From IMG/VR virus record IMGVR_UViG_3300036670_000209, positions 1-64,000 of that record: 64,000 nt of DNA. One strand, given 5' to 3'. This document shows, piece by piece, positions 39,407-61,847 of this stretch. The number at the start of each line of letters is the position of its first letter. The stretch's first letter is position 1. Position numbers and translations under genes: made by a program. Source of the stretch: a virus. The notes beneath the pieces were generated by a model. It saw nothing but the letters and a program-made list of their open reading frames with translations, was not told where the DNA came from and did not search any database.

Positions 39407-39769
39407 CTATTCTGGTATCTGGTTCACTGCCAGGTATTGTAACCAAGCCCACAGCAATAATCCCCCAGGATCCTGTTTAAGTGCAATTAACACCAGTGCC
39501 TCCCCACTGGGCATGGTCATGTAACTGGCACATGACTCATGATATACCAGTGCCCACATGGCTGCAATATTAGCTGCGTGACCGTTGGACCGCCTGGAAC
39601 ACTCACTGAATATCAGCAACTGGTCGTTTGATATTGGATGGGCCACATGGTCCCATGTCTCCATGAGTGTGACAAATACCCCGTCGCAGTTATGCGAGCT
39701 AGTTTCCACTGGAAATTGTAGGACTCGATCAATGTGTGCCGAATTGGGCAGGTGACTCCATGCTGTCAT
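39407..39769 (-). CDS. WSHLPN family, repeat-free basal form
   Basis: 120 residues from ATG 39769, after AAGGAAAC. Head TAWSHLPNSAHIDRVLQF and tail MTMPSGEALVLIALKQDPGG are present, but the Ala/Trp repeat middle is missing. It shows the family can fold without the repeat region. It shares a perfect 78-base repeat with 40713-40790. Confidence 0.75.
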   Translation of the reverse strand: MTAWSHLPNSAHIDRVLQFPVETSSHNCDGVFVTLMETWDHVAHPISNDQLLIFSECSRRSNGHAANIAAMWALVYHESCASYMTMPSGEALVLIALKQDPGGLLLWAWLQYLAVNQIPE

Positions 39770-39842
39770 GATGTTTCCTTGGTTGTTCATGTGACAATTA
39801 TAACACCAGATCTGTGGTTATCGTCTGAATTTCTTCTAAAAA
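39765..39842. repeat. 78-base direct repeat, copy 1
   Basis: Identical to 40713-40790 (offset 948). Spans a gene junction: start of one gene, leader, and end of the next. Marks a recent duplication unit in the array. It contains a TGTTATAAT-type extended -10 promoter element (39797-39802). Confidence 0.9.
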
Positions 39843-40283
39843 AGTCACATATGGCACCAGTAGAATCGCGGCAGGATCGTCACTCAAAGCACTCCAAATT
39901 TGCAGTTGATCTGCGGTCATGGTCAGGTAGCGGGCACAGTGATCATAGGCAATCAGAGCCAATACTGCATTCCATGCTGCATCCCGTGCTGCGGACCATA
40001 CTGCATGCTGTGCCGCCGTGAGGGTGTTACTTATCACAGGCCATGCGACATCCCATACCTGAGTCTTGGTCACGATCCAAGCAGCTATCCGTGGTGCATC
40101 AGGTATCAGGTAGTTAACTGTTCTCAGAGTCATATCCATGCGCAACGCCATGCTTTCGCTGGTCTTGTCAAGTGTTTCCCTTGCGTGTTGATAGTTGACA
40201 CCGGATGCAGAGAAGGATGATGACATATTGGCTATCACTGCATCAATATGCAGTGCATTGGGCAAGAGAATACATTCAGTCAT
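39798..40283 (-). CDS. WSHLPN family, long middle
   Basis: 161 residues from ATG 40283, whose ATGA overlaps the upstream stop. The head is TECILLPNALHIDAVI; the middle contains a HARETLDKTSESMALRMD insertion before short Ala/Trp stretches; tail DQLQIWSALSDDPAAILLV then FLEEIQTITTDLVL, identical to that at 40746. Confidence 0.75.
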   Translation of the reverse strand: MTECILLPNALHIDAVIANMSSSFSASGVNYQHARETLDKTSESMALRMDMTLRTVNYLIPDAPRIAAWIVTKTQVWDVAWPVISNTLTAAQHAVWSAARDAAWNAVLALIAYDHCARYLTMTADQLQIWSALSDDPAAILLVPYVTFLEEIQTITTDLVL

Positions 40284-40717
40284 GATGTTTCCTTTGTTTT
40301 GATGTGCCCCAAGAAAGTCACATAGGGTAGTAATAGCACACTGGCAGGATCTGTGCTCAGTGCACCCCATATTTTCAGTTGATCTGAGGTCATGGTCAGA
40401 TATCGGTCACAGTGATCATGGGCAACTAATGCCAATATTGCATCCCATACCATGTTACTTACTCCGTCACGTGCCACATATCGTGCCACATCCTTGGCTG
40501 TATCCTTCGCTGTACCCAATGCCGCATTCCATGCCGCACTCAAAGCCACATCCCTTGCCGCATCAAATACCGCACTCAATGCCACATTTCTTGCCGCGGC
40601 CCATACCACATCCCTTGTCGCATCGCGTGCTGGCATTGGTCTAATAGGAAACAATTCCACGTAGGTCAACACCTGATCAATATGTGCCGCATTGGGCAAG
40701 TGACTCCATTCAGTCAT
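40280..40717 (-). CDS. WSHLPN family, Ala/Lys-repeat form
   Basis: 145 residues from ATG 40717 after AAGGAAAC. The middle has ALSAAWNAALGTAKDTAKDV, a 4-residue period like the A-A-R-D repeats of other members but partly Ala-Lys-Asp. Tail LKIWGALSTDPASVLLLPYV. Confidence 0.75.
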   Translation of the reverse strand: MTEWSHLPNAAHIDQVLTYVELFPIRPMPARDATRDVVWAAARNVALSAVFDAARDVALSAAWNAALGTAKDTAKDVARYVARDGVSNMVWDAILALVAHDHCDRYLTMTSDQLKIWGALSTDPASVLLLPYVTFLGHIKTKETS

Positions 40718-40790
40718 GATGTTTCCTTGGTTGTTCATGTGACAATTATAACACCAGATCTGTGGTTATCGTCTGAATTTCTTCTAAAAA
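40713..40790. repeat. 78-base direct repeat, copy 2
   Basis: Identical to 39765-39842 (see there); here its -10-like element lies at 40745-40750. Confidence 0.9.
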
Positions 40791-41156
40791 GGTCACATAG
40801 GGGACCAGTAGAATTGCTGCAGGATCATCGCTCAATGTGCCCCATACCCGCAGTTGATCAGCGGTCATGGTCAGGTAGCGGGCACATTGGTCATAGGCCA
40901 CTAATGTCAGTATGGCCTGTCTTGCTGCATTCCATTGTGACCCCCAGACCACATCTCCTGCTGAATTGCGTAGTGCTTCTTTTTTCACTGCATTCCATAT
41001 ATCATCCCTGGATCGCTCATAAATATTATCCCATACTGCATCTATTGCTGGATTTACTTTCTCTGGCAGTACACCAATTCTGTCGGGATATGCCAGTAAA
41101 GTAGCCAGCACCTGATTGATGTGCACAGCATTGGGCAAGTGACTCCATGCAGTCAT
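40746..41156 (-). CDS. WSHLPN family, short
   Basis: 136 residues. Head TAWSHLPNAVHINQVLATLL, middle is repeat-poor (DDIWNAVKKEALRNSAGD) and charged. The tail end is identical to that of 39798-40283, showing gene conversion or duplication of the 3' ends. Confidence 0.75.
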   Translation of the reverse strand: MTAWSHLPNAVHINQVLATLLAYPDRIGVLPEKVNPAIDAVWDNIYERSRDDIWNAVKKEALRNSAGDVVWGSQWNAARQAILTLVAYDQCARYLTMTADQLRVWGTLSDDPAAILLVPYVTFLEEIQTITTDLVL

Positions 41157-41590
41157 ACCTGTTCCTTTATTGCAGCATGTTCAAATAGGGTCACATAGGG
41201 CAGTAACAGCACGGCTGCAGGATCTGCACCCAACGCACACCATACACGCAGTTGATCTGCGGTCATGGTCAGATATCGGTCACTGTGGTCATAGGCAATC
41301 AGGGCCAATATTGCATCCTGCCCACTATCCCATCGTTCCATGTCAACAGGCATATCACTTACGGTATCCCATGCTGCATCCCGCGCTGCGTTCCATGCCG
41401 TATTCTTTGCTGCATCATGGACCACATCCTGCGCCACCTCCCATGCCGCAAAGCGCGGACTCCATTCCGGCTCACCCTCTGTGCTTCTGGTACGTTGATA
41501 GGATGACCCAAATGCATATGAACATACTGCCAAGTCAGACAACACCTGATCAATATGTGCCGCATTGGGCAAATAGTTCCAATCGGTCAT
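41153..41590 (-). CDS. WSHLPN family
   Basis: 145 residues. Head is TDWNYLPNAAHIDQVLSDLA, with N instead of S-H. Middle holds AAKNTAWNAARDAAWDTVSD. ATGA overlap with each neighbour in the array. Confidence 0.75.
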   Translation of the reverse strand: MTDWNYLPNAAHIDQVLSDLAVCSYAFGSSYQRTRSTEGEPEWSPRFAAWEVAQDVVHDAAKNTAWNAARDAAWDTVSDMPVDMERWDSGQDAILALIAYDHSDRYLTMTADQLRVWCALGADPAAVLLLPYVTLFEHAAIKEQV

Positions 41591-42030
41591 GATATATTCC
41601 TTGTTTGGTCACAACATCCACTGATCGTCATTGCTTCAATACTTTCCAATATGGTCACATAGGAAAGTACCAAGGCGCTGGAAGGATAACCGCTTAACTC
41701 ACTCCACACTTGCAGTTCATCTGCAGTCATGGACAAATAATGACCACTATGATCGTATGCAACCAGTGCCAACGTCACATCCCACATGATCCATCTAGCT
41801 GACCATGTCCATGTGATCAACTTTGACGGCATCGCTGATTCCACTGCCACCAACACTGCATCCCATTCCTTTTCTCTTGATGCTGCTTTGACCGCACGCC
41901 ACGCAGCGTGCTGTATGTCTGTGCCGCATCCTGTGTGATGCACTGCATCAAGATGAGTGGAGAATGCCCCCACTTTAGACATTACCTGATCTATGTGCCG
42001 TGCATTGGGCAAGTGACTCCATGCAGTCAT
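41587..42030 (-). CDS. WSHLPN family, variable middle
   Basis: 147 residues. Head TAWSHLPNARHIDQVMSKVG; middle RAVKAASREKEWDAVLVA is not strictly periodic. Tail is slightly changed: MTADELQVWSELSGYPSSAL with an added cysteine-containing end CCDQTRNIS. Confidence 0.75.
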   Translation of the reverse strand: MTAWSHLPNARHIDQVMSKVGAFSTHLDAVHHTGCGTDIQHAAWRAVKAASREKEWDAVLVAVESAMPSKLITWTWSARWIMWDVTLALVAYDHSGHYLSMTADELQVWSELSGYPSSALVLSYVTILESIEAMTISGCCDQTRNIS

Positions 42031-42467
42031 GCTGTTTCCTTGTTGATGTTTTCCAAGAAAGTCACATATGGAACCAACAAGATCGCTGCTGGATCTGTGC
42101 CCAGGGCGCTCCAGGCGCGTAGCTGATCTGCGGTCATGGTCAGATATCGGTCACTGTAATCATAGGCAACCAATGCCAATATCGCATCCCGCATCACTAT
42201 GTCGACGATCACCTGCCGTGGCGCATCCCATGCTGCATCCCTTGCCGCACGCCATGCCGTACGCCGTGCCGCATCCCTTGCCGCATCCCTTGCCGCATCC
42301 CACGCCACATTCTTCGCCGCACGCCATGCCGCGCCCGATGGCAGCAAAGCTTGTGCCACCTCTTGTGACACACATGCGGCTGGAATTGGTGTAATATGTA
42401 ACAACCGTATATTGGCTATCACTGCATCAATATGCAGTGCATTGGGCAGGTGACTCCATGCAGTCAT
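42027..42467 (-). CDS. WSHLPN family, clearest tetrapeptide repeat
   Basis: 146 residues. The best example of the repeat: AARDAARDAARRTAWRAARD, four residues (12 bases) per unit with Trp replacing the Arg in some. The DNA has micro-repeats, so the length can change by slippage. Head TAWSHLPNALHIDAVIANIR. Confidence 0.8.
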   Translation of the reverse strand: MTAWSHLPNALHIDAVIANIRLLHITPIPAACVSQEVAQALLPSGAAWRAAKNVAWDAARDAARDAARRTAWRAARDAAWDAPRQVIVDIVMRDAILALVAYDYSDRYLTMTADQLRAWSALGTDPAAILLVPYVTFLENINKETA

Positions 42468-42877
42468 GCCAGTTCCTTTGAGGTATTATGCTCCATGAAA
42501 GTCACATAGGGCAGTAACAGTACGGCTGCTGGATCTGTGCCCAGGGCGCTCCAGGCGCGTAGCTGATCTGCGGTCATGGTCAGATATCGGTCACTGTAAT
42601 CATAGACAACCAGTGCTAGTATCACAGACTGTGATACATCCCATGCTGCACCCCATGACGAATTCCACGCCGCATTCCACGCTGCATCTAATATTGTATC
42701 TCTTGATGCTGCTTGGGCCGCAAGCCATGCCACATCTTGCGCCACATCCTGTACCGCACGCCATGCCGTATGGCCCGCCACACTACATGCTGGCGTCGGT
42801 CTAACATGTAATAACTGTATGTTAATCAACGCCTGATCTATGTGCCGTGCATTGGGCAAGTGACTCCATGCAGTCAT
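42464..42877 (-). CDS. WSHLPN family
   Basis: 137 residues. Middle AVQDVAQDVAWLAAQAASRD; the tail diverges only slightly. Head RHIDQALINIQLLHV includes Ala in place of Val at the HIDxV position, shared with 49867 and 50711. Confidence 0.75.
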   Translation of the reverse strand: MTAWSHLPNARHIDQALINIQLLHVRPTPACSVAGHTAWRAVQDVAQDVAWLAAQAASRDTILDAAWNAAWNSSWGAAWDVSQSVILALVVYDYSDRYLTMTADQLRAWSALGTDPAAVLLLPYVTFMEHNTSKELA

Positions 42878-43269
42878 GCCAGTTCCTTTGAGGTATTATG
42901 CTCCATGAAAGTCACATAGGACAGTAACAAGATCGCTGCAGGATCTGCGCTCAGCGCACCCCATACCTGTAGTTGGTCTGAGGTCATGGTCAAATATCGG
43001 TCACAATAATCATAGGCAACTAATGCCAATATCGCATACTGCGCCGCATCTCTCGCCGTATTCCTTGCCGCACTCCACGATGTAGTCCATGCCGCATCTA
43101 GTATTCTATCTCTCGATGCTGCGTTGGCCGCATCTCTTGCCGCATACCATGCCGCAACCACCGCCGCATCCCGCGCCACACTGTGTACTGGTGTAATGAG
43201 CAACGACCGTATATTGGCTATCACTGCATTAATATGCCGTGCATTGGGCAAGTGACTCCACGCGTTCAT
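42874..43269 (-). CDS. WSHLPN family
   Basis: 131 residues. Head NAWSHLPNARHINAVIANIR; middle RDAANAASRDRILDAAWTTS. Same tail sequence YVTFMEHNTSKELA as 42464, implying conversion between neighbours. Confidence 0.75.
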   Translation of the reverse strand: MNAWSHLPNARHINAVIANIRSLLITPVHSVARDAAVVAAWYAARDAANAASRDRILDAAWTTSWSAARNTARDAAQYAILALVAYDYCDRYLTMTSDQLQVWGALSADPAAILLLSYVTFMEHNTSKELA

Positions 43270-43745
43270 ATGTTTTCCTGAGTAGTAGTTGTTATACCAG
43301 TTGTGTTGATCGCGTCACGTAGTTGTAACCAAGTGAGTATTGTTCTCCAGCCCATGGGTTGCGCCAGTGCCAGTATGACTCCTGCGTGCTCCAATCCCAT
43401 GAGAGAATAATCAATCAATGAATCATTGGTAACCAGCAGCATGATCATATCCAGCAACCAGCGGGCTCGCTCCAGGTCAATGTCGTGGTCCCGATCACTA
43501 TCACTTAGATAATAACCACTATCACCTAGATAATAACCCAGTGGGCCGTTCATCTGATGGTCCACTGCTTCACAGATCTGAACTTGCTGTATGGTTTTGG
43601 CATCTCTGCACTGTAGCCAATCATCATCGCACAAACACTGCACATCAATCTGAGGTAGGCTATCCCAGATGTTTGATTTGGACTGCATGAGCTGAATCAG
43701 CTCATCAATCAGCTGGGCGTTGGCCAGATGTGACCAGAATACCAT
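43266..43745 (-). CDS. WSHLPN family, diverged acidic form
   Basis: 159 residues from ATG 43745 (VFWSHLANAQLIDELIQLMQ); longer frames would overlap the mini-gene. The middle lacks Ala repeats and instead has acidic tandem YYLGDSGYYLSDSDRD. Tail retains a ILALAQPMGWRTILTWLQL variant. Start overlaps the mini-gene stop (TAATG). Confidence 0.65.
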   Translation of the reverse strand: MVFWSHLANAQLIDELIQLMQSKSNIWDSLPQIDVQCLCDDDWLQCRDAKTIQQVQICEAVDHQMNGPLGYYLGDSGYYLSDSDRDHDIDLERARWLLDMIMLLVTNDSLIDYSLMGLEHAGVILALAQPMGWRTILTWLQLRDAINTTGITTTTQENI

Positions 43746-43843
43746 TATTGTGCTTCCAGGTGTATGGCATGACGTACATGCAAATAGGGCATCAGCAGCT
43801 GGTCCAGGTAAACTGCATTGGGCAGCTGACACCAGGCATTCAT
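43745..43843 (-). CDS. 32-residue mini WSHLPN gene (internal deletion)
   Basis: MNAWCQLPNAVYLDQLLMPY joins a head like NAWSHLPN...IDQVL directly to a tail like LLPYVTFLE (LHVRHAIHLEAQ). The middle is deleted in frame. It starts just inside the end of the UV-endonuclease gene (ATGA) and its stop overlaps the next start, which argues it is still translated. Confidence 0.65.
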   Translation of the reverse strand: MNAWCQLPNAVYLDQLLMPYLHVRHAIHLEAQ

Positions 43844-44850
43844 GATATACACTGGGAAAATGCCAGGCTGGCAATATTCTTACCCTTGGCCTCGCACTGT
43901 ATGTCAAAGTCTTGTGAAAATCCTGCTGCCCAGCGATTCACCGCGTGATTCCAATAATAGTCAGAATGCGCTCGTAATTTCTGACGATTATGCCCAGTGC
44001 CCAGCAGACTGGCCAGATCTGGCCTGACCTCAGGATCATGTGCCACCAGATAGTCCTCACGAGATACCGAATAATGACACGCAGGTCTGACACCTCTCCA
44101 GCTGTCAATAACTCGCCGGACCTGATCGTCCTGGGGATCAATATATTCCCCTTCACGAATCCAATTGTGATGGATATCCATCACAATGGGCACAATGTCT
44201 GCAATTTGCAAGCAGTCACTGAGCCCCCAACTATTTTCTTCGTTTTCTATGGTAATACAATTCCTGGCCTCAGGGCTCAGCTGCTGGTATGCACGTCGGA
44301 TACCATCAGGGCCCTGTTTACCGCTGATGTGCACATTGATCTTAAAGTCTTGAAAAGTTTTGCCGTAGCCCATCCAGCGTGCCATGTCAGCATGATACTC
44401 AAACTCAGCCAGACTACGCTCCACGATACCAGGATTTTCACTGGCCAGTACCACAAACTGTCCTGGATGCATGCTCAGTCTCACATCCAGTGCTCGGGCA
44501 GCCTGCCCCACCCTGGCAAACTCCCTGGCGCAGTATTCACGAACATCGTCACGTTGCCAGAAATAACTCCAATCTCGCTGTGTATACACGGGCAGCTGAT
44601 TGCTGCCCAGCCGCACCATGCGCAGATTGTCCGGCAGGCTGCCCACATACTGCACCAGGTTCAGTGCACTGCCGGTATTATGCACCATGATGTCCCACAG
44701 TCTTTGCTCGGCATCTGCACGTGTCTGTCTGTTTAACCAGGCCACCGTGGTACATTTTTCAGTACGAGCTCGCTGAATTTCTTCCAGTAATTTCACTGGC
44801 TGTGTTTGGTCTGGATGTAAATACTTACAGCAAAATCCCACTCTACCCAT
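43840..44850 (-). CDS. uvsE: UV damage endonuclease (UvdE/UvsE)
   Basis: 336 residues from ATG 44850, which has a GGAG ribosome site six bases away; a TTG two codons earlier (44856) is less likely. Visible: MGRVGFCCKYLHPD, SMHPGQFVVLASEN near 125, FKINVHISGKQGPD near 165, ENEENSWGL near 205 and VMDIHHNWI near 220, giving the metal-binding His and Glu of the TIM barrel. It nicks 5' to UV photoproducts to start repair. Rare in phages, helpful in sunlit water. Confidence 0.93.
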   Translation of the reverse strand: MGRVGFCCKYLHPDQTQPVKLLEEIQRARTEKCTTVAWLNRQTRADAEQRLWDIMVHNTGSALNLVQYVGSLPDNLRMVRLGSNQLPVYTQRDWSYFWQRDDVREYCAREFARVGQAARALDVRLSMHPGQFVVLASENPGIVERSLAEFEYHADMARWMGYGKTFQDFKINVHISGKQGPDGIRRAYQQLSPEARNCITIENEENSWGLSDCLQIADIVPIVMDIHHNWIREGEYIDPQDDQVRRVIDSWRGVRPACHYSVSREDYLVAHDPEVRPDLASLLGTGHNRQKLRAHSDYYWNHAVNRWAAGFSQDFDIQCEAKGKNIASLAFSQCIS

Positions 44851-44911
44851 GATCAACTCCAGTAATATAATTAATAATTCGCAATGTGTACATTATACAC
44901 TATAATGCTGG

Positions 44912-45928
44912 TTAGAAACCAACCAGGTCCTGAATAATTTCATAGTGATCTTCAAAGCACTCGGCACTGTTTATTTCTGCAAAAGGTACCCAACGTGCTC
45001 GTGTGGCATCATCTGAACCTTTTACACGTGGTAAATCACCATCAGGCAACCGAATCAGTTGCACATGGGTGATGATTCTACCACGCGCACTGCGATCTAT
45101 TGCATCATATACCCGGCTGCGTACAATGCTACCACGTAACACTGGTTCAGGTACCCTGATCAGGGTTTCTTCTCTGAGTTCTCGGATAGCTGCATCCACT
45201 ACGGTGTTGTCAGTCTGTGCATTAATGTATCCGCCAGGCAGCGCCCATAACCCACGGCCCGGCTCAGCGCGTCGTTTGATCATGAGCACATGTCCGCTGC
45301 ACACCACCACTGCATCAGCAGTGCTGAATATAGGAGGATACCTGAGCCCAGCATATTGCCGATTATGATCCACGATAAATTCACGCTCCCTGATCACCTG
45401 AGAGTAGTCATCAGTGCGGGCAAAATTCTCCAACCAGTCATGCACTGGCAAGGGTACCACTCCTTTGATGAAATTATAGTTCACCTGGCGTTTGAAATAC
45501 AGGTCCCTGATGTCCACTGCGCTCAGTGGCTGTATACTTTCCACATTCTCGTATGCCCACTGTGGAAACATATCCAGATAAAAGGAACTTTCATCTTTTT
45601 TATGCCCAATCATGCCCACACGGGCACCGGAATGCGCATGTGCGGCCACCAGCTGTTGTACCCTGGTGGCCCAGGCCTGGTTATTGTACAGGCTGTCAGT
45701 GGTGGATTCCACGGAAATATTCAAGCTCAATCCGCCAGTGGCCAGGCGTATCATGTGCGCACGTTCTACAAAAGTAAATGGATTCTTGAATGTTCGGGGA
45801 AGATTTGCACTACCCACCACAATCACCAGTTTGTCACACATGGCGGTTGCTCGCTTGATGATCTCCAGGTGAGCATTGTGCAGTGGTTGGAATCTGCCAA
45901 TAAAAACCAAAACGTCATATTTGTTCAT
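44912..45928 (-). CDS. nadM: Bifunctional NMN adenylyltransferase / Nudix hydrolase
   Basis: 338 residues. N-terminal half: FIGRFQPLHNAHLEI (nucleotidyltransferase GxFxPxHxxH) makes NAD from NMN and ATP. C-terminal half: Nudix domain near 200-330, box GGYINAQTDNTVVDAAI then RELREETLI. Two box positions deviate: the first Glu is Asn and the late Gly is Leu, so ADP-ribose pyrophosphatase activity may be reduced. With NAMPT at 30431 it completes nicotinamide-to-NAD. It starts beside the next small gene with a 4-base overlap. Confidence 0.95.
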   Translation of the reverse strand: MNKYDVLVFIGRFQPLHNAHLEIIKRATAMCDKLVIVVGSANLPRTFKNPFTFVERAHMIRLATGGLSLNISVESTTDSLYNNQAWATRVQQLVAAHAHSGARVGMIGHKKDESSFYLDMFPQWAYENVESIQPLSAVDIRDLYFKRQVNYNFIKGVVPLPVHDWLENFARTDDYSQVIREREFIVDHNRQYAGLRYPPIFSTADAVVVCSGHVLMIKRRAEPGRGLWALPGGYINAQTDNTVVDAAIRELREETLIRVPEPVLRGSIVRSRVYDAIDRSARGRIITHVQLIRLPDGDLPRVKGSDDATRARWVPFAEINSAECFEDHYEIIQDLVGF

Positions 45929-46378: not shown

Positions 46379-46603
46379 TTATTGGTTAACTCCAAAATGT
46401 TTCCTAATCCGTTTTGAACACTCGCTGACTATCGAGCCCCTTGAATCTGACTCGGATACTATCCAACATTGTGTTACACATTCTTCTACAATCAACTCAG
46501 CAAACTTTTTTAACTCTTGTTCGCAATCATCACCTGATTCACTGAACCAAGAATCCATGAATCCGGCCACATCAGCCAGTTGTTTTATTCGTTCATTTAT
46601 CAT
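46379..46603 (-). CDS. LIVxEC-family small early protein
   Basis: 74 residues with MNERIKQLADVAGFMDSWF head, KFAELIVEECVTQC helix near 40 and KHFGVNQ end. This is a widely spread phage early family (MNERI...FAELIVEEC...HFGV), function unknown. Overlaps the upstream gene by 4 bases. Confidence 0.75.
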   Translation of the reverse strand: MINERIKQLADVAGFMDSWFSESGDDCEQELKKFAELIVEECVTQCWIVSESDSRGSIVSECSKRIRKHFGVNQ

Positions 46604-47300: not shown

Positions 47301-47495
47301 TTAATCTCCAAAATGTTGTTTGATTTTCTTATTCACAAAGGCATAACGCTCAGTATCAATTAATCCCTCTGCCCATTGTGCCCCAACATCAGCACATTCC
47401 ATCACAATTAACTCGGCGAACTTTGCCAAGTCAATATTGTGCTGAGAATAACTGTGATGGCATTGTGCAGCAAGCTGTAAAATTCGTTCGTTCAT
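47301..47495 (-). CDS. LIVxEC-family small early protein
   Basis: 64 residues, MNERILQLAAQCHHSYS... then KFAELIVMECADVG and KKIKQHFGD. Short and with a long insert between head and helix; overlaps the downstream gene by 4 bases. Confidence 0.75.
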   Translation of the reverse strand: MNERILQLAAQCHHSYSQHNIDLAKFAELIVMECADVGAQWAEGLIDTERYAFVNKKIKQHFGD

Positions 47496-47674
47496 TTATG
47501 TAACCATGTGTTATATGCAATATTCGTACCAATGAGTAGCCAAATGATAGCAAGTCCAGCCTGGCTGTGAAACAAGAAATTTAAACCAGCTGCTGTGTTT
47601 AGTGCACTGACTGTATATCCGATGGGCCTATGATTATGTGATAACCAGTCTGCAACAAAGATAATTTTATTCAT
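47492..47674 (-). CDS. Small membrane protein
   Basis: 60 residues, one or two hydrophobic segments (AGLNFLFHSQAGLAIIWLLI). Unknown. Confidence 0.6.
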   Translation of the reverse strand: MNKIIFVADWLSHNHRPIGYTVSALNTAAGLNFLFHSQAGLAIIWLLIGTNIAYNTWLHK

Positions 47675-48152
47675 TTTTAATTCCCAAATGTGTTGCCAGC
47701 TGCTGCTCTGGTTTGCTGATATGGTTTAATATCAGCTGTATATAATTTGCCAACAGTATTGCCGCAGGGTCATTTTTAAGCAGCCCCCAGGGCAGTAGTT
47801 GGTTGGCGTTCGCTTCCAGATAGTCAGATGCATGGTCCCATATCAGTATGGCTTGCATGGCATCCACTATGATCACACTGCTGAAGTTCACTATACTATC
47901 ATGATATGCCTGGAACTCGTTACTGAACATACGTTCCACACGTATTTGACGCAGTTGCCACCAAACTTTGTGCTGGGCGCTAGTTTCCGGCTGCTGGCGT
48001 ACCAGTGCCACCATCAACTCCCGGGCACCAGCCAACTGATGCAGATCCACTGCACCAGGATCAATGGAGGGCACCACCGGTGCATTCTGCATATGTTCCC
48101 ACATGTTTTCAAGTATTGCACTGTTGGGTTGTTGTGTAAATATTGGCTTCAT
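47667..48152 (-). CDS. Diverged WSHLPN-family protein
   Basis: 161 residues from ATG 48152. The head is QQPNSAILENMWEHM, far from W-S-H-L-P-N, and there is no Ala/Trp repeat; the tail AILIWDHASDYLEANANQLL and WGLLKNDPAAILLANYI is clearly related. Promoter 48178-48206. Confidence 0.65.
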   Translation of the reverse strand: MKPIFTQQPNSAILENMWEHMQNAPVVPSIDPGAVDLHQLAGARELMVALVRQQPETSAQHKVWWQLRQIRVERMFSNEFQAYHDSIVNFSSVIIVDAMQAILIWDHASDYLEANANQLLPWGLLKNDPAAILLANYIQLILNHISKPEQQLATHLGIKNE

Positions 48153-48177
48153 ATGGTGTGTTTGATGGACTGATACC

Positions 48178-48206
48178 AGTATACAGTAAAGCGACATACC
48201 TGTCAA
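48178..48206 (-). promoter_or_regulatory. Strong sigma70 promoter
   Basis: Perfect TTGACA, 17 bases, TATACT on the minus strand; drives 47667-48152. Confidence 0.8.
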
Positions 48207-48214
48207 ACTCCAGA

Positions 48215-48394
48215 TCATAGCATGTTAAACAGTGCTGGCATGTAGTAAAAATAGGTAAATAACATCCAAATAGCCATCCATCTCTGTTGCCGGCCCTGGC
48301 AATATTCACGATAGGTCAATAGCACCAAGGAAATATAAATCACATGAGGAATTAATAATTTGATTATCATCTGGGTACTCATAGCAGTGGGCAT
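48215..48394 (-). CDS. 59-residue two-TM membrane peptide
   Basis: Starts MPTAMSTQMIIKLLIPHVIY; hydrophobic segments near 8-27 and 40-57. No clear ribosome site; a start at the second Met (48382) is possible. The gap would otherwise be empty. Unknown. Confidence 0.5.
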   Translation of the reverse strand: MPTAMSTQMIIKLLIPHVIYISLVLLTYREYCQGRQQRWMAIWMLFTYFYYMPALFNML

Positions 48395-48898: not shown

Positions 48899-48978
48899 TG
48901 GTCAAGTGCCAAGTGGTCGATGTTATCTGGTACCTGATTCAGGTATGCAGCGTTGGTCAAGTGGTTATGATCTGTCAT
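48895..48978 (-). CDS. 27-residue WSHLPN mini-gene, truncated head
   Basis: MTDHNHLTNAAYLNQVPDN... keeps the head pattern (WSHLPNAAHIDQV) but stops early (IDHLALDQ). Followed without gap by the LIVxEC mini-gene. It sits at the end of the second array (48975-51546), like the 43745 mini-gene at the first. Confidence 0.55.
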   Translation of the reverse strand: MTDHNHLTNAAYLNQVPDNIDHLALDQ

Positions 48979-49433
48979 GTTGCCTTTGTTTGTATTGATT
49001 GTGCTTGCGTCAAGTGTGCTGGTACCCCCAGGGCGTTTGCAGTTCCCATGAAAGTTACGTAGGGCAGCAATAGCACACTGGCAGGATCTGCGTTTAACTT
49101 ACTCCAAACAGCCAGGTGATCTGAGGTCATGGTCAGATATCGGTCACAGTGATCATAGGCGATCAGGGCCATTATTGCATCTCTTGCTGCATCCCTTGCT
49201 ACACTCACAGCAGCCACCTCCCAGGTTACATCACGTAGCGCATTACGCGCCGCGCGCTTTGCTGAAATCCATGCGGCATCCCGTTCCGCATTCCACAACT
49301 CACCCCAGGCCGCATTCCAAGCCGTATTCCTTGCCGCATCACACGCCGGTATTGGTCTAATAGAGAACGACTGTATGTGGGCCAATACCTGATCAATATG
49401 CGCCGCATTGGGTAAATGACTCCATGCAGTCAT
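48975..49433 (-). CDS. WSHLPN family
   Basis: 152 residues. Head TAWSHLPNAAHIDQVLAHIQ, middle RAARNALRDVTWEVAAVSVA, tail WSKLNADPASVLLLPYVTFM, with a unique C-terminal extension NALGVPAHLTQAQSIQTKAT. Confidence 0.75.
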   Translation of the reverse strand: MTAWSHLPNAAHIDQVLAHIQSFSIRPIPACDAARNTAWNAAWGELWNAERDAAWISAKRAARNALRDVTWEVAAVSVARDAARDAIMALIAYDHCDRYLTMTSDHLAVWSKLNADPASVLLLPYVTFMGTANALGVPAHLTQAQSIQTKAT

Positions 49434-49870
49434 GCTGTTTCCTTTGAGGTAGCAGGTTCCATGAGGGTCACGTAGGGCAACAACAAGATTGCCGCCGGTT
49501 CTGTGCTCAACTTACTCCAAACAGCCAGTTCGTCAGCAGTCATGGTCAGATATTGGGCACTGTGGTCATAGGCAATCAGGGCTATTATCACATCCTGTGC
49601 CGCATCCCATGCCACATCCAATGCCGCATTCCATGCCACATCCCCCGTTACGGTCAGCACCAGTGCACTGTATACCGCACGCCGCGCCGCGCACCATGCT
49701 GCATCTTGTGACACCTCTTGTACCCCATCCTGTGCCGCACGCCAGGCCGCATTTTGTGCCACCTTTTGTACCACATGTTCGGTTGGCATTGATCTAATAG
49801 AGAACGACCCCAAGTTGGCTATCACTGCATCAATATGCAGTGCATTGGGCAAGTGACTCCATGCAGTCAT
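49430..49870 (-). CDS. WSHLPN family
   Basis: 146 residues. Middle is VTGDVAWNAALDVAWDAAQD with a strand-like inserted VYSALVLTVTG; head TAWSHLPNALHIDAVIANLG. Tail YVTLMEPATSKETA. Confidence 0.75.
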   Translation of the reverse strand: MTAWSHLPNALHIDAVIANLGSFSIRSMPTEHVVQKVAQNAAWRAAQDGVQEVSQDAAWCAARRAVYSALVLTVTGDVAWNAALDVAWDAAQDVIIALIAYDHSAQYLTMTADELAVWSKLSTEPAAILLLPYVTLMEPATSKETA

Positions 49871-50280
49871 ACTGGTTGCTCGGTTGTGGAGTGTTCCAAT
49901 AGGGTCACATAGGGCAGTAGTAGGATTGCCGCTGGATCTGTGCCCAGGGCGCTCCAGGCGCGTAGTTGATCTGCGGTCATGTTCATGTATCGGTCACTGT
50001 GGTCATAGGCAACTAATGCCATTATTGCATCTTGTACCGACCGCCATGCCCCATGCCACGCCACATCCCATGCCACATTCCATGCCGCATCCCATGCCGC
50101 ATCCCATACCACATCTCTTGATGCCGCCTGCGCCGCACCCCATGCCGCATCACGTGCCACATCCCATGATGCACGCCATGCCGCATCATGTGCCGGCATT
50201 GGTCTAATAGAGAACAACTTCATGTTGATCAATGCCTGATCTATGTGCCGTGCATTGGGCAAGTGACTCCATTCCGTCAT
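49867..50280 (-). CDS. WSHLPN family
   Basis: 137 residues from ATG 50280. Middle WDAAWDAAWNVAWDVAWHGA, Trp-rich and strongly periodic. This gene and the next two share leader and 5' ends almost base for base, indicating recent copies. Confidence 0.78.
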   Translation of the reverse strand: MTEWSHLPNARHIDQALINMKLFSIRPMPAHDAAWRASWDVARDAAWGAAQAASRDVVWDAAWDAAWNVAWDVAWHGAWRSVQDAIMALVAYDHSDRYMNMTADQLRAWSALGTDPAAILLLPYVTLLEHSTTEQPV

Positions 50281-50714
50281 GCTGTTTCCTTGGTTGTGAT
50301 GTGTTCCAATAGGGTCACATAGGGCAGTAACAGCACACATGCAGGATCCGCACCCAACGCACTCCATACCTGTAGTTGATCTGCTGTCATGTGCATGTAT
50401 CGGTCACAGTGGTCATAGGCGATCAGGGCCATTATTGCATCTTGTGCCGACCGCCATGCCACATCTTGCACCACATCTATTGCCGCGTTCCACGCCGCAT
50501 CCCATGCCCCATTCCATGCCACATCTCTTGATGCCACCAGCGCCGCGTTCCACGCCGCGTTCCACGCCGCGTTCCACGCCGCGTCTCGTGCTGTACGCCA
50601 TGCCGCACGCCATGCTGCATCATGTGCCGGCATTGGTCTAATAGAGAACGACTCCAAGTTGGCCAATACCTGATCTATGTGCCGTGCATTGGGCAAATGA
50701 CTCCATTCCGTCAT
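50277..50714 (-). CDS. WSHLPN family
   Basis: 145 residues from ATG 50714. Contains NAAWNAAWNAALVASRDVAW, a 12-base DNA micro-repeat (about 50525-50580). The leader CAAGGAAACAGCATG is shared across this array. Confidence 0.78.
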   Translation of the reverse strand: MTEWSHLPNARHIDQVLANLESFSIRPMPAHDAAWRAAWRTARDAAWNAAWNAAWNAALVASRDVAWNGAWDAAWNAAIDVVQDVAWRSAQDAIMALIAYDHCDRYMHMTADQLQVWSALGADPACVLLLPYVTLLEHITTKETA

Positions 50715-51124
50715 GCTGTTTCCTTGGTTGTGATGTGTTCCAATAGGGTCACATAGGGCAGTACTAGGATTGCCGCTGGATCCGTACCCAACGCGCCCCA
50801 TATTTTCAGTTGATCTGCGGTCATGGTCAGATATTGGGCACTGTGGTCATAGGCAACTAATGCCATTATTGCATCTTGTGCCGATCGCCATGCCACATCC
50901 CATTCCACATCTCTTGCCGCGTTCCACGCCGCATTCCATGCCGCATTCCATGCCACATCTCTTGATGCCGCCTGCGCCGCATCCCATGCCGCATCTCGTG
51001 CTGTACGCCGTGCCGCACGCCGTACAGCATCATATGCCGGCATTGGTCTAATAGAGAACAACTGCGTGTTAATCAATGCCTGATCTATGTGCCGTGCATT
51101 GGGCAAATAACTCCATTCCGTCAT
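50711..51124 (-). CDS. WSHLPN family
   Basis: 137 residues from ATG 51124. Head TEWSYLPNARHIDQALINTQ; middle NAAWNAAWNAARDVEWDVAW. Nearly the same as the two neighbouring copies. Confidence 0.78.
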   Translation of the reverse strand: MTEWSYLPNARHIDQALINTQLFSIRPMPAYDAVRRAARRTARDAAWDAAQAASRDVAWNAAWNAAWNAARDVEWDVAWRSAQDAIMALVAYDHSAQYLTMTADQLKIWGALGTDPAAILVLPYVTLLEHITTKETA

Positions 51125-51546
51125 GCTGTTTCCTTTGAGGTAGCATGCTCCAAGAAAGTCACATATGGAATCAACAAGATCGCAGCGGGATCCTCGTTCA
51201 GAGCACCCCATACCTGTAGTTGGTCTGAGGTCATGGTCAAATATCGGTCACAATAATCATAGGCAACTAATGCCAATATCGAATACCTTGCCGCAGTCCG
51301 TGCCGCATCCAATGCCGCACTCCACGATGTAGTCCATGCCGCATCCAATTCCGCATACCATGCCGCATCTCTTGCCGCATACCATGCTGCATCTCTTGCC
51401 GCAGCTATTGCCGCATCCAATGCCGCAGCTATGATCTCAGCCTGACACGTTTGATATGCCCTGCTGGCTTCAGTGGGATACGAGTGTAAGTTGGCTATCA
51501 CTGCATCAATATGCCGTGCATTGCGCAAGTGACTCCATTTGGTCAT
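51121..51546 (-). CDS. WSHLPN family, second-array first gene
   Basis: 141 residues. Head KWSHLRNARHIDAVIANLHS with Arg for Pro; middle AALDAAIAAARDAAWYAARD, mostly Ala with Tyr instead of Asp in places. Tail FLEHATSKETA. Confidence 0.75.
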   Translation of the reverse strand: MTKWSHLRNARHIDAVIANLHSYPTEASRAYQTCQAEIIAAALDAAIAAARDAAWYAARDAAWYAELDAAWTTSWSAALDAARTAARYSILALVAYDYCDRYLTMTSDQLQVWGALNEDPAAILLIPYVTFLEHATSKETA

Positions 51547-57107: not shown

Positions 57108-57111
57108 GCTG

Positions 57112-57548: not shown

Positions 57549-57577
57549 ATTATAGCATAAAACAAAAACCCAGTCAA
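57549..57577 (-). promoter_or_regulatory. Sigma70 promoter cassette
   Basis: TTGACT, 17 bases, TGCTATAAT, then AACACATAAACAGCAACAC leader (minus strand), nearly identical to the 57004 cassette; drives 57112-57513. Confidence 0.85.
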
Positions 57578-57585
57578 ATTTCGGG

Positions 57586-57951
57586 TTATCCAACGCCAGA
57601 GTATTTTTTGATTTTGCCCACAGTAGTCACGGGCACCAAATTCACCGTGAATTCATGTGCAACAATATAATAATAGGTCGTCTGGTTGTATTTAAATTTT
57701 GATATGCCCTCGTACAGAGTACTGCCCACATAAAATTGCTTGGAATATTCATCCTGACCGCACCCATGAGCCCCACTGCATGCTGCTCCGGCAATTGAAT
57801 ACAACTGGTCTCCGATCAGTGCGCTGGCTATTTCCAGGGTGTCATAGACATTATTCTTGGGATTTTTTTCAAAATCCACATCATAAGTGGTACAATCCGC
57901 CAGCGCACTGCTGTCTGTACAAATGTTATTTTGAATTTTTTGTTTGCTCAT
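57586..57951 (-). CDS. HEFxV-family protein, intact form
   Basis: 121 residues. GAHGCGQDEYSKQFYVGSTL, HEFTVNLVPVTTVGKIKKYS. The undisturbed relative of 57112. Function unknown; Cys pair and HEF could bind metal. Confidence 0.75.
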   Translation of the reverse strand: MSKQKIQNNICTDSSALADCTTYDVDFEKNPKNNVYDTLEIASALIGDQLYSIAGAACSGAHGCGQDEYSKQFYVGSTLYEGISKFKYNQTTYYYIVAHEFTVNLVPVTTVGKIKKYSGVG

Positions 57952-58129
57952 TTTTTAAAATTATTTTAATCATTTGATATAAGATTGCAGCGTTCCAGGG
58001 ATTATCCACACAAATCTTTTGCATATTTATTATATCAGCTTCTGCGATTGTGGGCTCATGTTCTATTAACAGTTCACGGACAATTTCTTCGTTTAGTATT
58101 GCGTTCACATCTGGCGTGGTTGGTTTCAT
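57926..58129 (-). CDS. Small hypothetical protein
   Basis: 67 residues. MKPTTPDVNAILNEEIVREL, acidic start, then helix NAAILYQMIKIILKNEQTKN. Overlaps its neighbours by 4 and 26 bases. Confidence 0.6.
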   Translation of the reverse strand: MKPTTPDVNAILNEEIVRELLIEHEPTIAEADIINMQKICVDNPWNAAILYQMIKIILKNEQTKNSK

Positions 58130-58260
58130 ACTGTGGGCTTTCTCAGACTTGCATTAAACCATTCAGTTAGATTTGAATTCAATGTGGCAATGGTGATCTG
58201 ATCCACTGGTGGTCTGATAGTTCTATGGTCTCGTGTGATTCGAGTGTGGTCAATTTTCAT
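58126..58260 (-). CDS. 44-residue gene with NEWF-type tail
   Basis: MKIDHTRITRDHRTIRPPVD, then TLNSNLTEWFNASLRKPTV, which copies the tail of 46600-46800 (ALNANLNEWFADSLRKPT) with a different head. Overlaps the next gene by 4 bases (ATGA). Confidence 0.65.
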   Translation of the reverse strand: MKIDHTRITRDHRTIRPPVDQITIATLNSNLTEWFNASLRKPTV

Positions 58261-58288
58261 TTTTACTTCCAAATAATCGATAAGTGAA

Positions 58289-58465
58289 CTACCAGTTCCT
58301 GAGTAGCAATATCAGCGGCGCACAACATATCAATACCAAATATAATATCCAAATCATACGCCGTGCTGCGATTATTTTTTTCTGTGTTTCAAACATCAGC
58401 AGCATGTAGGTCACAGCATTTAGTATTAATACCAAAATTATTAGTAGTAGTTGTCCGTGGTCCAT
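58289..58465 (-). CDS. 58-residue two-TM membrane peptide
   Basis: MDHGQLLLIILVLILNAVTY begins the first hydrophobic segment; a second (MIWILYLVLICCAPLILLLR) ends it. AGGAGGATCTC ribosome site is excellent, so it is clearly a gene. Confidence 0.75.
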   Translation of the reverse strand: MDHGQLLLIILVLILNAVTYMLLMFETQKKIIAARRMIWILYLVLICCAPLILLLRNW

Positions 58466-58544
58466 GAGATCCTCCTGTTAACTGATACGCTGCGGCCGTG
58501 GTTGCCCTGTCAGCTGCAACTGAAAAATATTATAAGCCCAGGTG

Positions 58545-58766
58545 CTACAGGCGATATTTGGCTAGCACACTGACGGCCAAATCCACTGAATCAATCTGAT
58601 CAGTTATCTCCAGTTGCATCAGCTGGATCAGCAGCTGGCATTGCTGCTGATGCTCCGGGAGCAGGCTGGCTATAAATATGTCCACCCGCGTTTTATTTTC
58701 CATTTGCCAGATTATCTGGCAAAAAAGTTGCTGCAAGCGTGTGAGTCCATTCAGTGTGATATCCAT
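58545..58766 (-). CDS. Small hypothetical helical protein
   Basis: 73 residues, MDITLNGLTRLQQLFCQIIW; amphipathic helices with LLPEHQQQCQLLIQLMQLE. Unknown. Confidence 0.6.
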   Translation of the reverse strand: MDITLNGLTRLQQLFCQIIWQMENKTRVDIFIASLLPEHQQQCQLLIQLMQLEITDQIDSVDLAVSVLAKYRL

Positions 58767-58822
58767 GATTTCTCCAGTATATGTTGATTGTAATGCAGTG
58801 CAGTTTATAAGTCAAACCAGGT

Positions 58823-59251
58823 TCAGTGTTTTTTGTTCAGTGCAAGCTGTACACACACCATTGGGTATAGCAGGCTGCCAGCTGGGGTGGGGTTTAGTAT
58901 ATTCCATACCACCAGCTGATCAGGCGTCAGGTTCAGGTACTGCCCACAATTATCATATATAATCAGTGCCAATAGTATGCCCTGTATCGCAGCCCAGGTA
59001 TAATTATTAACCCGTATCCCATGTTTTTCCAGCATGTTCACGTGATTTTGAATTTTGACCATCATGGTGATCCAAACGTGATTACGCCGTCCATCCCAGA
59101 GTACACTGTGTGCAGCCGACCACGACACGTCCCATTCACTTCCCAGGTGGCTAAAACTCCAAACTGAGTCCCATGCCGGTGTCTCTGGGTCCAAACTGTT
59201 CAGCAGCTGGTTAATATGGGCTGCGTTGGGCAGGTGACTCCATGCTGTCAT
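58823..59251 (-). CDS. WSHLPN family, third-array last gene, repeat-poor
   Basis: 142 residues from ATG 59251. Head TAWSHLPNAAHINQLLNSLD; middle SVWSFSHLGSEWDVSWSAAH has Ser/Trp instead of Ala/Trp. Tail QYLNLTPDQLVVWNILNPTP (Ala-Asp to Pro substitution). Ends LALNKKH. Confidence 0.7.
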   Translation of the reverse strand: MTAWSHLPNAAHINQLLNSLDPETPAWDSVWSFSHLGSEWDVSWSAAHSVLWDGRRNHVWITMMVKIQNHVNMLEKHGIRVNNYTWAAIQGILLALIIYDNCGQYLNLTPDQLVVWNILNPTPAGSLLYPMVCVQLALNKKH

Positions 59252-59267
59252 GCTGTTTCCTTGGTTG

Positions 59268-59732
59268 CTATGCGTCAATTATAGCAGAATTCATTAACCC
59301 AGTCAACTGTGGGGGCTTTACCGTTTCCAATAGAGTCACATATGGAATCAATAAGATCGCAGCGGGATCGTCGCTCAAAGCACCCCATACAGCCAGATGA
59401 TCTGCGGTCATGGTCAGATATCGGTCACTGTGATCATAGGCAACCAATGCCAATATCGCATTTAATGTCGCATCCCACAGCACGATGTCAACGGTCACCT
59501 GCTGTGACGCATCCCATGCCGGCCCCGATACCACATCTCTCACCACACCCCATGCCGCACCCAATGCCTCAGCTCTCGCTGCGACACATGCCACATCCCT
59601 GGCCACATCCCAGTAGGCCGTCGCCAGCCCAACCAAAGACTTTTTGGCATCTGATCTATCTGGAAACGATCGCAAGTGGGCCAGCACCTGATCAATGTGC
59701 CGTGCATTGGCCAAGTGACTCCATTCAGTCAT
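59268..59732 (-). CDS. WSHLPN family
   Basis: 154 residues. Middle GLATAYWDVARDVACVAARA contains Cys; the tail ends PQLTGLMNSAIIDA, which runs through the 59278-59306 promoter, showing the promoter was set inside this gene's end. Confidence 0.75.
   Translation of the reverse strand: MTEWSHLANARHIDQVLAHLRSFPDRSDAKKSLVGLATAYWDVARDVACVAARAEALGAAWGVVRDVVSGPAWDASQQVTVDIVLWDATLNAILALVAYDHSDRYLTMTADHLAVWGALSDDPAAILLIPYVTLLETVKPPQLTGLMNSAIIDA
59278..59306 (-). promoter_or_regulatory. Sigma70 promoter inside gene end
   Basis: TTGACT, 17 bases, TGCTATAAT on the minus strand; drives 58823-59251. Confidence 0.75.
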
Positions 59733-60160
59733 GATGTTTCCTTTGAGGTGGCATTTTCCAAGAAAGTCACATAGGGCAGTAATAGGATCGCTGCGGGATC
59801 ATAGTTCAATGCACACCATACGCGCAGTTGATCTGCGGTCATGGTCAAATATTGGGCACAATGGTCATACACAACCAATGCCAATATCGCATTCAATATC
59901 GCATCCCGCATCACTATGTTGACGGTCACCTGCTGCGGCGCATCCCATGTCACATCCCATGCCGCATCCAACGCCACATCCCTGGTCTCGGTCAGCACCA
60001 GTGCGCCGTACACCTCACACCGCGCCGCGCGCGATGCTGCATCTTGTGCCACCTCTTGTGACACACATGCGGCTGGTATTGGTCTAATAGAGAACGATCT
60101 TATGTTGGTCAATACCCAATCTATATGTGCTGCATTGGGCAGGTGACTCCATGCAGTCAT
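59729..60160 (-). CDS. WSHLPN family
   Basis: 143 residues from ATG 60160. Head TAWSHLPNAAHIDWVLTNIR; middle CVSQEVAQDAASRAARCEVY. The start lies in the ATGA overlap with 60157. Confidence 0.75.
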   Translation of the reverse strand: MTAWSHLPNAAHIDWVLTNIRSFSIRPIPAACVSQEVAQDAASRAARCEVYGALVLTETRDVALDAAWDVTWDAPQQVTVNIVMRDAILNAILALVVYDHCAQYLTMTADQLRVWCALNYDPAAILLLPYVTFLENATSKETS

Positions 60161-60558
60161 ACTGGTTCCTTGTTTGTGGAGTGTTCCAAGAAAGTCACGT
60201 AGGGCAGCAATAGAATTGCCGCTGGGTCGTTGCTCAATGCACCCCATACCCGCAGTTGATCAGCGGTCATTGAAAGACAAGGGGCACAGTGATCGTAAAC
60301 AATCAGGGCCAGCAGTGCATCCCGCCACGTGCTATTAGCGGTACATGATGATGTGTATAATGTGGCGTCCCATATCAGGTGTCTTTTTGTATCCAATATT
60401 GCCCTCCTTGCTGAAACTCTGGCTGCGTCCGTTGCCTCTTGTCTTTCTGCACTCCAGCGCGTATTGCTGGACTCATGGTGAGTACTGGGATATGCTGTTA
60501 GGTTGGATCGCACCAAGTCAATATGTGCTGCATTGGGCAAGTGATTCCATCTATTCAT
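60157..60558 (-). CDS. WSHLPN family, low-repeat
   Basis: 133 residues from ATG 60558. Head NRWNHLPNAAHIDLVRSNLT; middle QEATDAARVSARRAILDTKR has basic residues instead of Trp repeats. SD-like AAGAGA is weak. Confidence 0.7.
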   Translation of the reverse strand: MNRWNHLPNAAHIDLVRSNLTAYPSTHHESSNTRWSAERQEATDAARVSARRAILDTKRHLIWDATLYTSSCTANSTWRDALLALIVYDHCAPCLSMTADQLRVWGALSNDPAAILLLPYVTFLEHSTNKEPV

Positions 60559-61048
60559 ATGTGTCTCTTGGTTGTTCATGTGTTGATTGCAACATCGGAT
60601 CAATTGGCTGTGTCTTGATGTTTTCTAATAAAGACACATAGGGCAGTAACAGCACACATGCTGGATCATCACTCAAGGCACTCCACACTCGTAGTTGATC
60701 TGCGGTCATGGTCAAATATCGGACACTGTGGTCATAGGCAATCAGTGCCAATATTGCATCCTGTACACTGTCCCATACACTATCCCAAATCGCCCTGCGT
60801 GCATCATAACGAGTCATTGTGGCACGAGAGACCAATTGGCACTGGGCGATTACCGCTGCTCTTGCACCATGCCGCAATGCGTCCCGTACTGCTTGCTGAG
60901 CCACTGACCATGCTGACTCCCGTGCCAACCAATTCCACTCCTGTTGCTTTGAAAAGAGTGGCGGGATAGATGCAATAGTAAACGATCGCAAGTAGGATAT
61001 CACCTGATCTATATGTGCCGCATTGGGCAAGTGATCCCATGCCGTCAT
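60551..61048 (-). CDS. WSHLPN family, long C-terminus
   Basis: 165 residues. Head TAWDHLPNAAHIDQVISYLR; the middle is charged (LARESAWSVAQQAVRDALRH). Ends with NIKTQPIDPMLQSTHEQPRD, which appears to be leader sequence read as protein. Confidence 0.7.
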   Translation of the reverse strand: MTAWDHLPNAAHIDQVISYLRSFTIASIPPLFSKQQEWNWLARESAWSVAQQAVRDALRHGARAAVIAQCQLVSRATMTRYDARRAIWDSVWDSVQDAILALIAYDHSVRYLTMTADQLRVWSALSDDPACVLLLPYVSLLENIKTQPIDPMLQSTHEQPRDTYE

Positions 61049-61500
61049 GCCAGTCGCCCGGGGGTAGCATGTTCCAAGAAAGTCACATAGGGCAGTAACA
61101 GCACACCGGCTGAATCATCACTTAGGGCAGCCCACACTTGAAGTTCATCTGCGGTTACGGTCATGTATCGGTCACTGTGGTCATAGGCAATCAGGGCCAT
61201 TATTGCACCCACGGCTGCTCTCCAAGCTTCTCTTGGCGTATCTCTTGCCACATCCCGTGCCACATCCAATGCCGCATCCAATGCTATAATCCTTCCCATG
61301 GACCATATCGTATTAAATGCTGTATTAAATGCTGTATTCAATGCTGTATTCAATTCCGCAAGCTCTAAAAGTACAGCTGGCGCAACCACCTGTTTTTTGC
61401 CATGCACGGGTGACATAATGAATTCAGAGCAACACAACGGTATACCGGTCAGCACCTGGTCAATGTGTGTAGCGTTGGGCAAGTGACTCCATTCCGTCAT
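61045..61500 (-). CDS. WSHLPN family
   Basis: 151 residues. Head TEWSHLPNATHIDQVLTGIP; middle NTALNTAFNTAFNTIWSMGR uses Thr/Phe periodically in place of Ala/Trp, a different repeat. Tail AWRAAVGAIMALIAYDHSDR. Confidence 0.72.
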   Translation of the reverse strand: MTEWSHLPNATHIDQVLTGIPLCCSEFIMSPVHGKKQVVAPAVLLELAELNTALNTAFNTAFNTIWSMGRIIALDAALDVARDVARDTPREAWRAAVGAIMALIAYDHSDRYMTVTADELQVWAALSDDSAGVLLLPYVTFLEHATPGRLA

Positions 61501-61847
61501 ATTGATGTTGCCCCTATCATTGGCCCGTACGATTTTAGCCAGGGCAGCAGCAGGCGCCCGGCTGCGCAGTCGCTTAGCTCAATTATGATGGTTGCGCGGT
61601 CAATGGTCATGGAGTGGTATTTCTGACAGGTCGGGTCCATGATCAGTGCAACCAGTGCACACTGAATGATCACATTCTTTTCAATGTTGGGCACTGTGTC
61701 CCACATGCTGTTGAATCGTTTTTGCTGCGGCCAATCAAGTTCATCACGAGCATCCAGATACACGTGGTATGTGTCTGAGCAATACCATCGTGAATTGCAT
61801 GTGTTGCTTGACATTATCACTTGTTCTATGAGTTCTTGATTGTTCAC
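61497..61847 (-). CDS. Diverged WSHLPN-tail protein
   Basis: 116 residues. No W-S-H-L-P-N head. End region CQKYHSMTIDRATIIIELSD, CAAGRLLLPWLKSY aligns with the family tail. Last relative of the array. Confidence 0.65.
   Translation of the reverse strand: MNNQELIEQVIMSSNTCNSRWYCSDTYHVYLDARDELDWPQQKRFNSMWDTVPNIEKNVIIQCALVALIMDPTCQKYHSMTIDRATIIIELSDCAAGRLLLPWLKSYGPMIGATSI

Follow-up and report, generated by a model that had tools for sequence, protein, structure and literature searches.

The window analysed here spans positions 1-64000 of IMGVR_UViG_3300036670_000209, a linear phage record of 103,039 bp in IMG/VR with T4-type replication genes. It encodes a family of small proteins (~100-170 amino acids) in which a conserved head and tail enclose a variable number of four-residue A-A-X3-X4 units. 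We identified 21 full copies, all on the minus strand, in three clusters of nine, six and six genes, each where an earlier sequence-only reading of this DNA had placed it. In related phages the units are more diverse at X4 than at their silent sites, and this contrast is the main result reported below. The family members identified in the window are as follows.

39407..43269, minus strand: cluster 1, nine full genes (39407, 39798, 40280, 40746, 41153, 41587, 42027, 42464 and 42874), with mainly 4-base stop/start overlaps at the junctions
48975..51546, minus strand: cluster 2, six full genes, with 4-base overlaps at 5/5 junctions
58823..61500, minus strand: cluster 3, six full genes
50714..51124, minus strand: representative copy, the subject of the first AlphaFold2 model
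38945..39337, minus strand: diverged relative with a recognisable tail (profile match E 6.9e-10)
43266..43745, minus strand: diverged relative with the head motif (profile match E 2.8e-4); probable start MVFWSHLANAQLID
43748..43843, minus strand: head-only mini-gene of 32 codons, MNAWCQLPNAVYLDQLL... (profile match E 0.0083, and head motif)
47667..48218, minus strand: diverged relative with a recognisable tail (profile match E 5.6e-14)
61497..61847, minus strand: diverged relative (profile match E 2.6e-9), with a 4-base overlap with the copy at 61045-61500

All four diverged relatives proposed earlier were recovered with a profile built from the 21 full copies (E 5.6e-14 to 2.8e-4). For the one at 43266..43745, the listed open reading frame (ORF) extends upstream to 43907. 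Two mini-genes had also been proposed; one is the head-only gene listed above, and the second was not found in a six-frame motif search, in which a tail-only form was not searched for as such. Our count is thus 26 members (21 full, four diverged and one mini-gene) rather than the 27 claimed. Likeness between members within the record is far above chance (E down to 3e-45). The ATGA-type coupling described for most copies was confirmed by coordinates, with 4-base stop/start overlaps at 16 of the 21 intra-cluster junctions when the end-lying diverged relatives are counted. The sequence AAGGAA occurs no more than 25 bases upstream of the start in 16 of the 21 full copies. A gene-length tandem period (410-434 bp) extends across much of cluster 2, as identified using Tandem Repeats Finder (TRF).

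The head of the family has the majority sequence W-S-H-L-P-N-A-x-H-I-D and the tail the majority sequence ALIAYDDC...LLLPAV. The head motif (W-x-x-L-P-N-A-x-x-I-D) lies within the first 25 residues. Across 123 aligned sequences (130 were kept after filtering, and the sequences aligned had been chosen for the head motif), L7 and N9 are invariant, and W4, P8, A10, I13 and D14 are each present in at least 90%. The tail pattern A-L-[IV]-A-[YW]-D ... LLLP was likewise found, with A88, L89, D93, L99 and L120 at 90% or above. The 21 window copies have the head motif with small departures, and their tails are weak by eye in two cases (39407 and 58823). The middle has a period of four residues, as is evident from the autocorrelation of tryptophan and alanine at +4, +8 and +12 (z 8-45). 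Window and relatives were tested separately; z reaches 45 in the relatives, and tryptophan recurs at these spacings in the window with z 8 to 10 versus shuffled sequences. Thus, the periodicity of the A-A-R-D/A-A-W-D middle described earlier is strong, but many middles in the window are degenerate, and several copies have largely lost the period. Clean A-A-[WR]-[DGNS] tetrads are commoner in the relatives, where alanine makes up 33% of the middle versus 21% in the window.

Within the window, pooled Nei-Gojobori dN/dS is 0.23 for the head, 0.54 for the middle and 0.18 for the tail (19/21 copies, two having been left out), with silent sites near saturation and the middle poorly aligned. This agrees with the earlier proposal that the head and tail are conserved and the middle is more variable. 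Head and tail distances are barely related (Mantel r 0.05, p 0.30) and are nearly the same within and between clusters, which hints at mosaic exchange of heads and tails among the window copies, although the two halves of the tail likewise show only a weak correlation (r 0.23, p 0.04). In a 77.7-kb relative, heads and tails travel together (r 0.80, p 0.005, 21 copies). Due to this correlation, and to the weak correlation between the tail halves, we avoid a general claim of mosaic exchange.

Relatives were identified by degenerate-pattern scans of IMG/VR. The window profile yielded 30 loci, and a broader alignment yielded 107 confirmed stretches in one scan, 80 of which were kept. In bacterial genomes the window profile had no match and the broader alignment had one (L115), a short contig of an Armatimonadetes metagenome-assembled genome, with AAA/DUF2201 genes that resemble the phage ones. 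No members were found by tblastn in 50,697 phage records (four queries) or in 72,556 plasmid records (one query), searches of limited sensitivity because the low-complexity filter masks the repeat; the sole match, to a microvirus, had an E of 2, as expected by chance. The presence of more than 100 confirmed stretches in contigs of uncultivated phages, and of none in the catalogued phage records searched with four queries, points to a sizeable blind spot.

The number of copies per record ranges from one (e.g., in 239-kb and 167-kb records) through 5-8 in others (8, 7 and 7) to ~25-27 in the 77.7-kb record, among records that were picked because they matched and many of which are fragments. Given this range, large arrays are not confined to a single phage, and phages do not share copy number one to one. 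Neither of the two patterns named beforehand as contradicting the sequence-only reading (even purifying selection, or a shared copy number with one-to-one orthologues) was seen, and the wide variation in copy number supports that reading. Dense tandem repeats with 10- to 210-bp periods lie ahead of the large array in the 77.7-kb phage (L048, 3301-4382).

The members scanned had no convincing match in Pfam or NCBIfam; Pfam matches were of the composition type only and restricted to single members (glycine zippers in 2/12, a copper-octapeptide repeat in 1/12). None of 12 members matched PADLOC anti-phage defence profiles at E 0.1, and no match was found in the PDB by sequence (best E 0.63). No publication on the family was found, by family peptides or by topic, in the open-access literature, a scope outside which most subscription journals fall.

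Diversity within the repeat was compared in contig groups with at least 10 units each. Mean pi is 0.246 at the third bases of the two Ala codons versus 0.557 at the first and second bases of X4. Diversity at X4 exceeds silent diversity in 26 of 27 groups (958 units) and, gene by gene, in 91 of 98, with two genes equal. Heads and tails served as an internal control, in which nonsynonymous diversity was above silent diversity in 1/11 and 0/12 groups, respectively. In the clearest phages (L028, L085, L093 and L108), the Ala third bases are nearly fixed in the repeat, in contrast to the mixed Ala codons of the head and tail. In these phages the first two bases of X4 are diverse, as is the first base of X3. 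The Ala codons that are fixed in the repeat differ from phage to phage. Residues at X3 are mostly R (37%) and W (31%), with L (7.5%) and Y (5.6%) less frequent, and those at X4 are D (34%), G (17%), N (9%), A (7%) and S (6.5%). The order of X3/X4 is near shuffled between copies of one phage. Uniform silent sites beside a diverse X4 are the trace expected from homogenisation by slippage or conversion together with selection for X3/X4 diversity, and these arrays are a clean case of silent uniformity next to diverse amino-acid-changing sites.

The length of the middle changes in steps of 12 bases, as had been proposed. Of the 130 members with both anchors (from 170 unique members), 90 have a head-to-tail anchor spacing of 2 mod 4, as do 59 of the 68 that are repeat-rich. 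Because this register is kept despite a range of 50 to 118 residues, we conclude that length changes mostly by whole units. Two contigs (L085 and L086) are 99.76% identical across 8,258 bp, and their sole gap is 12 bp, or one unit. In another pair (L023 and L026), the head and tail of the protein are the same and the middles are different. Between L035 and L036, 17 of the 25 differences fall within 13% of the alignment; a conversion donor for this cluster of single-nucleotide polymorphisms was looked for and not found.

The family protein is predicted to be all-helical. The first AlphaFold2 model, of the copy at 50714..51124 (m603ec9a563ff; predicted local distance difference test, pLDDT, 82.8; predicted template modelling score, pTM, 0.77), has helices at residues 10-22 in the head, 33-52, 56-70 and 76-91 in the middle, and 93-100, 103-112 and 116-135 in the tail. 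A second model, of a repeat-rich relative, has pLDDT 78.2 and pTM 0.62. Head and tail are confident in both models and the middle is weaker. Comparison of the first model with PDB folds gave no E below 5, and no Z of at least 2 among 18 chains. A Foldseek search of viral structures (BFVD) gave no match at E 0.001; the top match (E 0.025, probability 1.00, TM 0.47 by query) was A0A6J5NXU4, an uncharacterised protein of an uncultured Caudovirales phage that, on this structural likeness, is likely a family member. Profile matches over the Ala-rich repeat were found to three PHROGs of unknown function (phrog_8332, phrog_3416 and phrog_18326; best E 3.5e-13). The matches listed lie mostly in the repeat; they reach into part of the head at most and do not span the entire tail, which makes shared composition a possible cause. 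The listed matches to phrog_8332 extend over profile positions 134-225 of 248 only, rather than its full length.

We tentatively favour a reading in which a conserved helical scaffold carries a diversified X3/X4 surface and the copies bind varied partners, most likely host proteins. Its evolutionary part, diversification at X3/X4, is well supported in the relatives. The head and tail would form the shared scaffold. Slippage or conversion would homogenise the repeat while X3/X4 are diversified, and these residues may form the interaction surface, in what is the least confident part of both structural models. Hot spots of protein interfaces are often Arg, Trp or Tyr. Separate copies would bind separate partners, probably host proteins such as defence or takeover targets, and the repertoire would be made together from the translationally coupled genes. 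The arrays of the window look older than those of the relatives, as their silent sites have drifted and several middles are without tetrads.

If X3/X4 are truly a diversified surface, they would constitute a very simple natural binding code that is open to test, a repertoire of interaction proteins kept without a retroelement, and a marker for finding the host proteins that are targeted. It is possible, if doubtful, that phages hold in this form a natural combinatorial library of binders, in which selection diversifies a variable dipeptide (R/W/Y/L followed by D/G/N/S/A) and length and number are renewed by slippage of 12 bp and by gene duplication. Such a library would be a repertoire against changing host proteins that is free of reverse transcriptase.

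Several points weigh against the binding-surface reading. The comparison of X4 with silent sites was made among repeat units rather than orthologous sites, two of the 27 groups nearly duplicate others (L067 in the case of L070, and L085 in that of L086), and one contig (L082) is the sole group with the opposite sign. The count rests on X4, because variation at the first base of X3 is partly silent (CGG/AGG). A few groups retain weak conservation of X3/X4 order (z 2.2-3.4). The records derive from metagenomes, and short-read assembly may misplace 12-bp units. The middle, which would be the binding surface, is the region modelled with least confidence by AlphaFold2, and the binding role and its targets are inferred. 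The window's own contrast is small (silent 0.51 versus X4 0.66), the dN/dS of its middle (0.54) is below 1, and the mod-4 register is not significant when the window is taken alone (7/15, p 0.22); for these reasons positive selection is not shown there. The claim of diversity at X3/X4 beyond that of silent sites therefore holds for the relatives and is weak for the window from which it was made.

The foremost alternative, which we consider rather unlikely, is that the scaffold is tolerant and depends on dosage. X3/X4 would be tolerant positions of a helical protein that acts by dosage or bulk (structural, chaperone-like or condensate-forming), with units kept young by slippage and old X3/X4 polymorphism carried along and shuffled. 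This would fit the nearly random order of X3/X4, a window middle that outpaces head and tail and is often degenerate, and the many coupled copies, which would raise dosage. However, tolerance predicts that diversity at X4 does not exceed that at four-fold silent Ala sites, and it is higher in all but one of the groups and in 91/98 genes. Residue use is also narrow, with R/W at 68% of X3 and D/G at 51% of X4. Clearly less probable is that the family proteins are partners or clients of two other phage proteins, a MoxR-type AAA ATPase and a DUF2201 protein (vWA, with a metallopeptidase domain at the N terminus), with a role in virion assembly or protein remodelling. The passage on this pair in PMC7824862 reports it from jumbo phages, with the metallopeptidase domain, and proposes a virion-assembly role. 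Family genes are located between or beside AAA and/or DUF2201 genes in four loci (L033, L093, L039 and L115), DUF2201 only is found beside family genes in L028, and 17 of the 50 records searched encode DUF2201. No DUF2201 was identified in the window record, which may be a fragment, and in four records it is 19-91 kb distant. Proximity is weakly non-random (Fisher p 0.019, relatedness uncorrected, in 14 of the 17 records; a bacterial contig and two records without listed copy coordinates were left out). We regard the partnership as a suggestive lead that is statistically weak. L082 is also among the loci with AAA and/or DUF2201 genes beside or between family copies.

A mobile or selfish cassette that spreads within and between phages for its own sake seems quite improbable. 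One copy shared by L032 and L034 differs at 1/384 bases, compared with 81-88% likeness in the other listed matching stretches, which speaks for such spread, but heads and tails are under purifying selection, and no nuclease or recombinase family is among the Pfam, NCBIfam and PHROG matches of the members scanned. The silent bases could also be fixed by a constraint on the DNA or on an overlapping gene (a recombination motif, or an antisense or alternative-frame protein), and long antisense ORFs do traverse the repeats in the window. We consider this very improbable. The fixed Ala codon pair varies with the phage (GCG-GCA, GCG-GCT, GCC-GCT, GCT-GCT, GCA-GCA and GCT-GCA), which means that no single DNA motif or antisense peptide is preserved between phages, and one shared motif or antisense gene was rejected as the explanation. 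Diversity-generating retroelements produce localised protein hypervariation in phages, and the localised nonsynonymous diversity seen here is a feature common to both. That the repeats are targets of such an element is scarcely credible. The candidate was rejected since reverse transcriptase (PF00078) was identified in none of 16 records (the window record and 15 relatives, several of them fragments). Position 7 of the unit can be T, C or A, and in some phages where it varies the adenine at position 6 is fixed (e.g., 63/67 in L058), which may also weigh against such targeting.

Among known systems, TAL effectors consist of ~34-residue units, each with a repeat-variable diresidue, and bind DNA bases. 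They too are modular repeats in which two residues per unit vary and the rest are uniform, but the units described here have only four residues. The presence of two hypervariable residues in an otherwise uniform repeat is clear in the relatives and weak in the window. For copy number, the nearest precedent that we found appears to be the zinc-ribbon expansion of Bacillus phage G (~35 copies; PMC7824862). Judging from the passage on it, there too a small protein of uncertain function has expanded, in one lineage, to dozens of copies within a large phage genome. It differs in its zinc ribbon fold, and that passage does not mention a hypervariable short repeat.

Other genes of the record were also identified. 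The window encodes a family B DNA polymerase with top matches in the jumbo phages Phosso (48% identity) and Atu_ph07 (44%), an ATP-dependent-protease-type ATPase and nicotinamide phosphoribosyltransferase. A clamp loader and DNA ligase are encoded in the remainder of the record. The first 24 kb of the window had no nucleotide matches among catalogued phages. A set of genes for NAD salvage (30431-31912 and 44912-45928) comprises the nicotinamide phosphoribosyltransferase (phrog_448) and a cytidylyltransferase-Nudix fusion. A UvdE-type UV endonuclease is encoded at 43840-44856, and a Macro-domain match at 38391-38894 is below the cut-off.

The same phage has another, smaller expansion of a repeat protein, made up of three tandem paralogues of 115-118 amino acids with dense Cys repeats (CIGCKDC...; 35444-36511, minus strand). 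One of these matches phrog_15341 (E 2.1e-12), a PHROG of unknown function. As an added control, the Cys codons of these genes were counted and are mixed (48 TGC and 26 TGT), in a different kind of repeat.

Genes at 17903-18961 and 20663-22123 of the window resemble, by eye, those of a tripartite tricarboxylate transporter (a TctC-like binding protein and a TctA-like membrane protein), and a second such pair was noted by eye in locus L010 (5494-6456 and 6414-7739). These pairs, as candidate identities, look unusual for phage. An ORF that by eye is superoxide dismutase-like, without a PHROG match, is present in locus L011 (2412-2963). Small proteins with a 'EEFAELIVEECA'-type motif are encoded among the clusters of the window (46379-46603, 47301-47495 and 62017-62241), and a neighbour cluster with ORFs of this type was identified in 12 of 49 deduplicated loci, the window counted.

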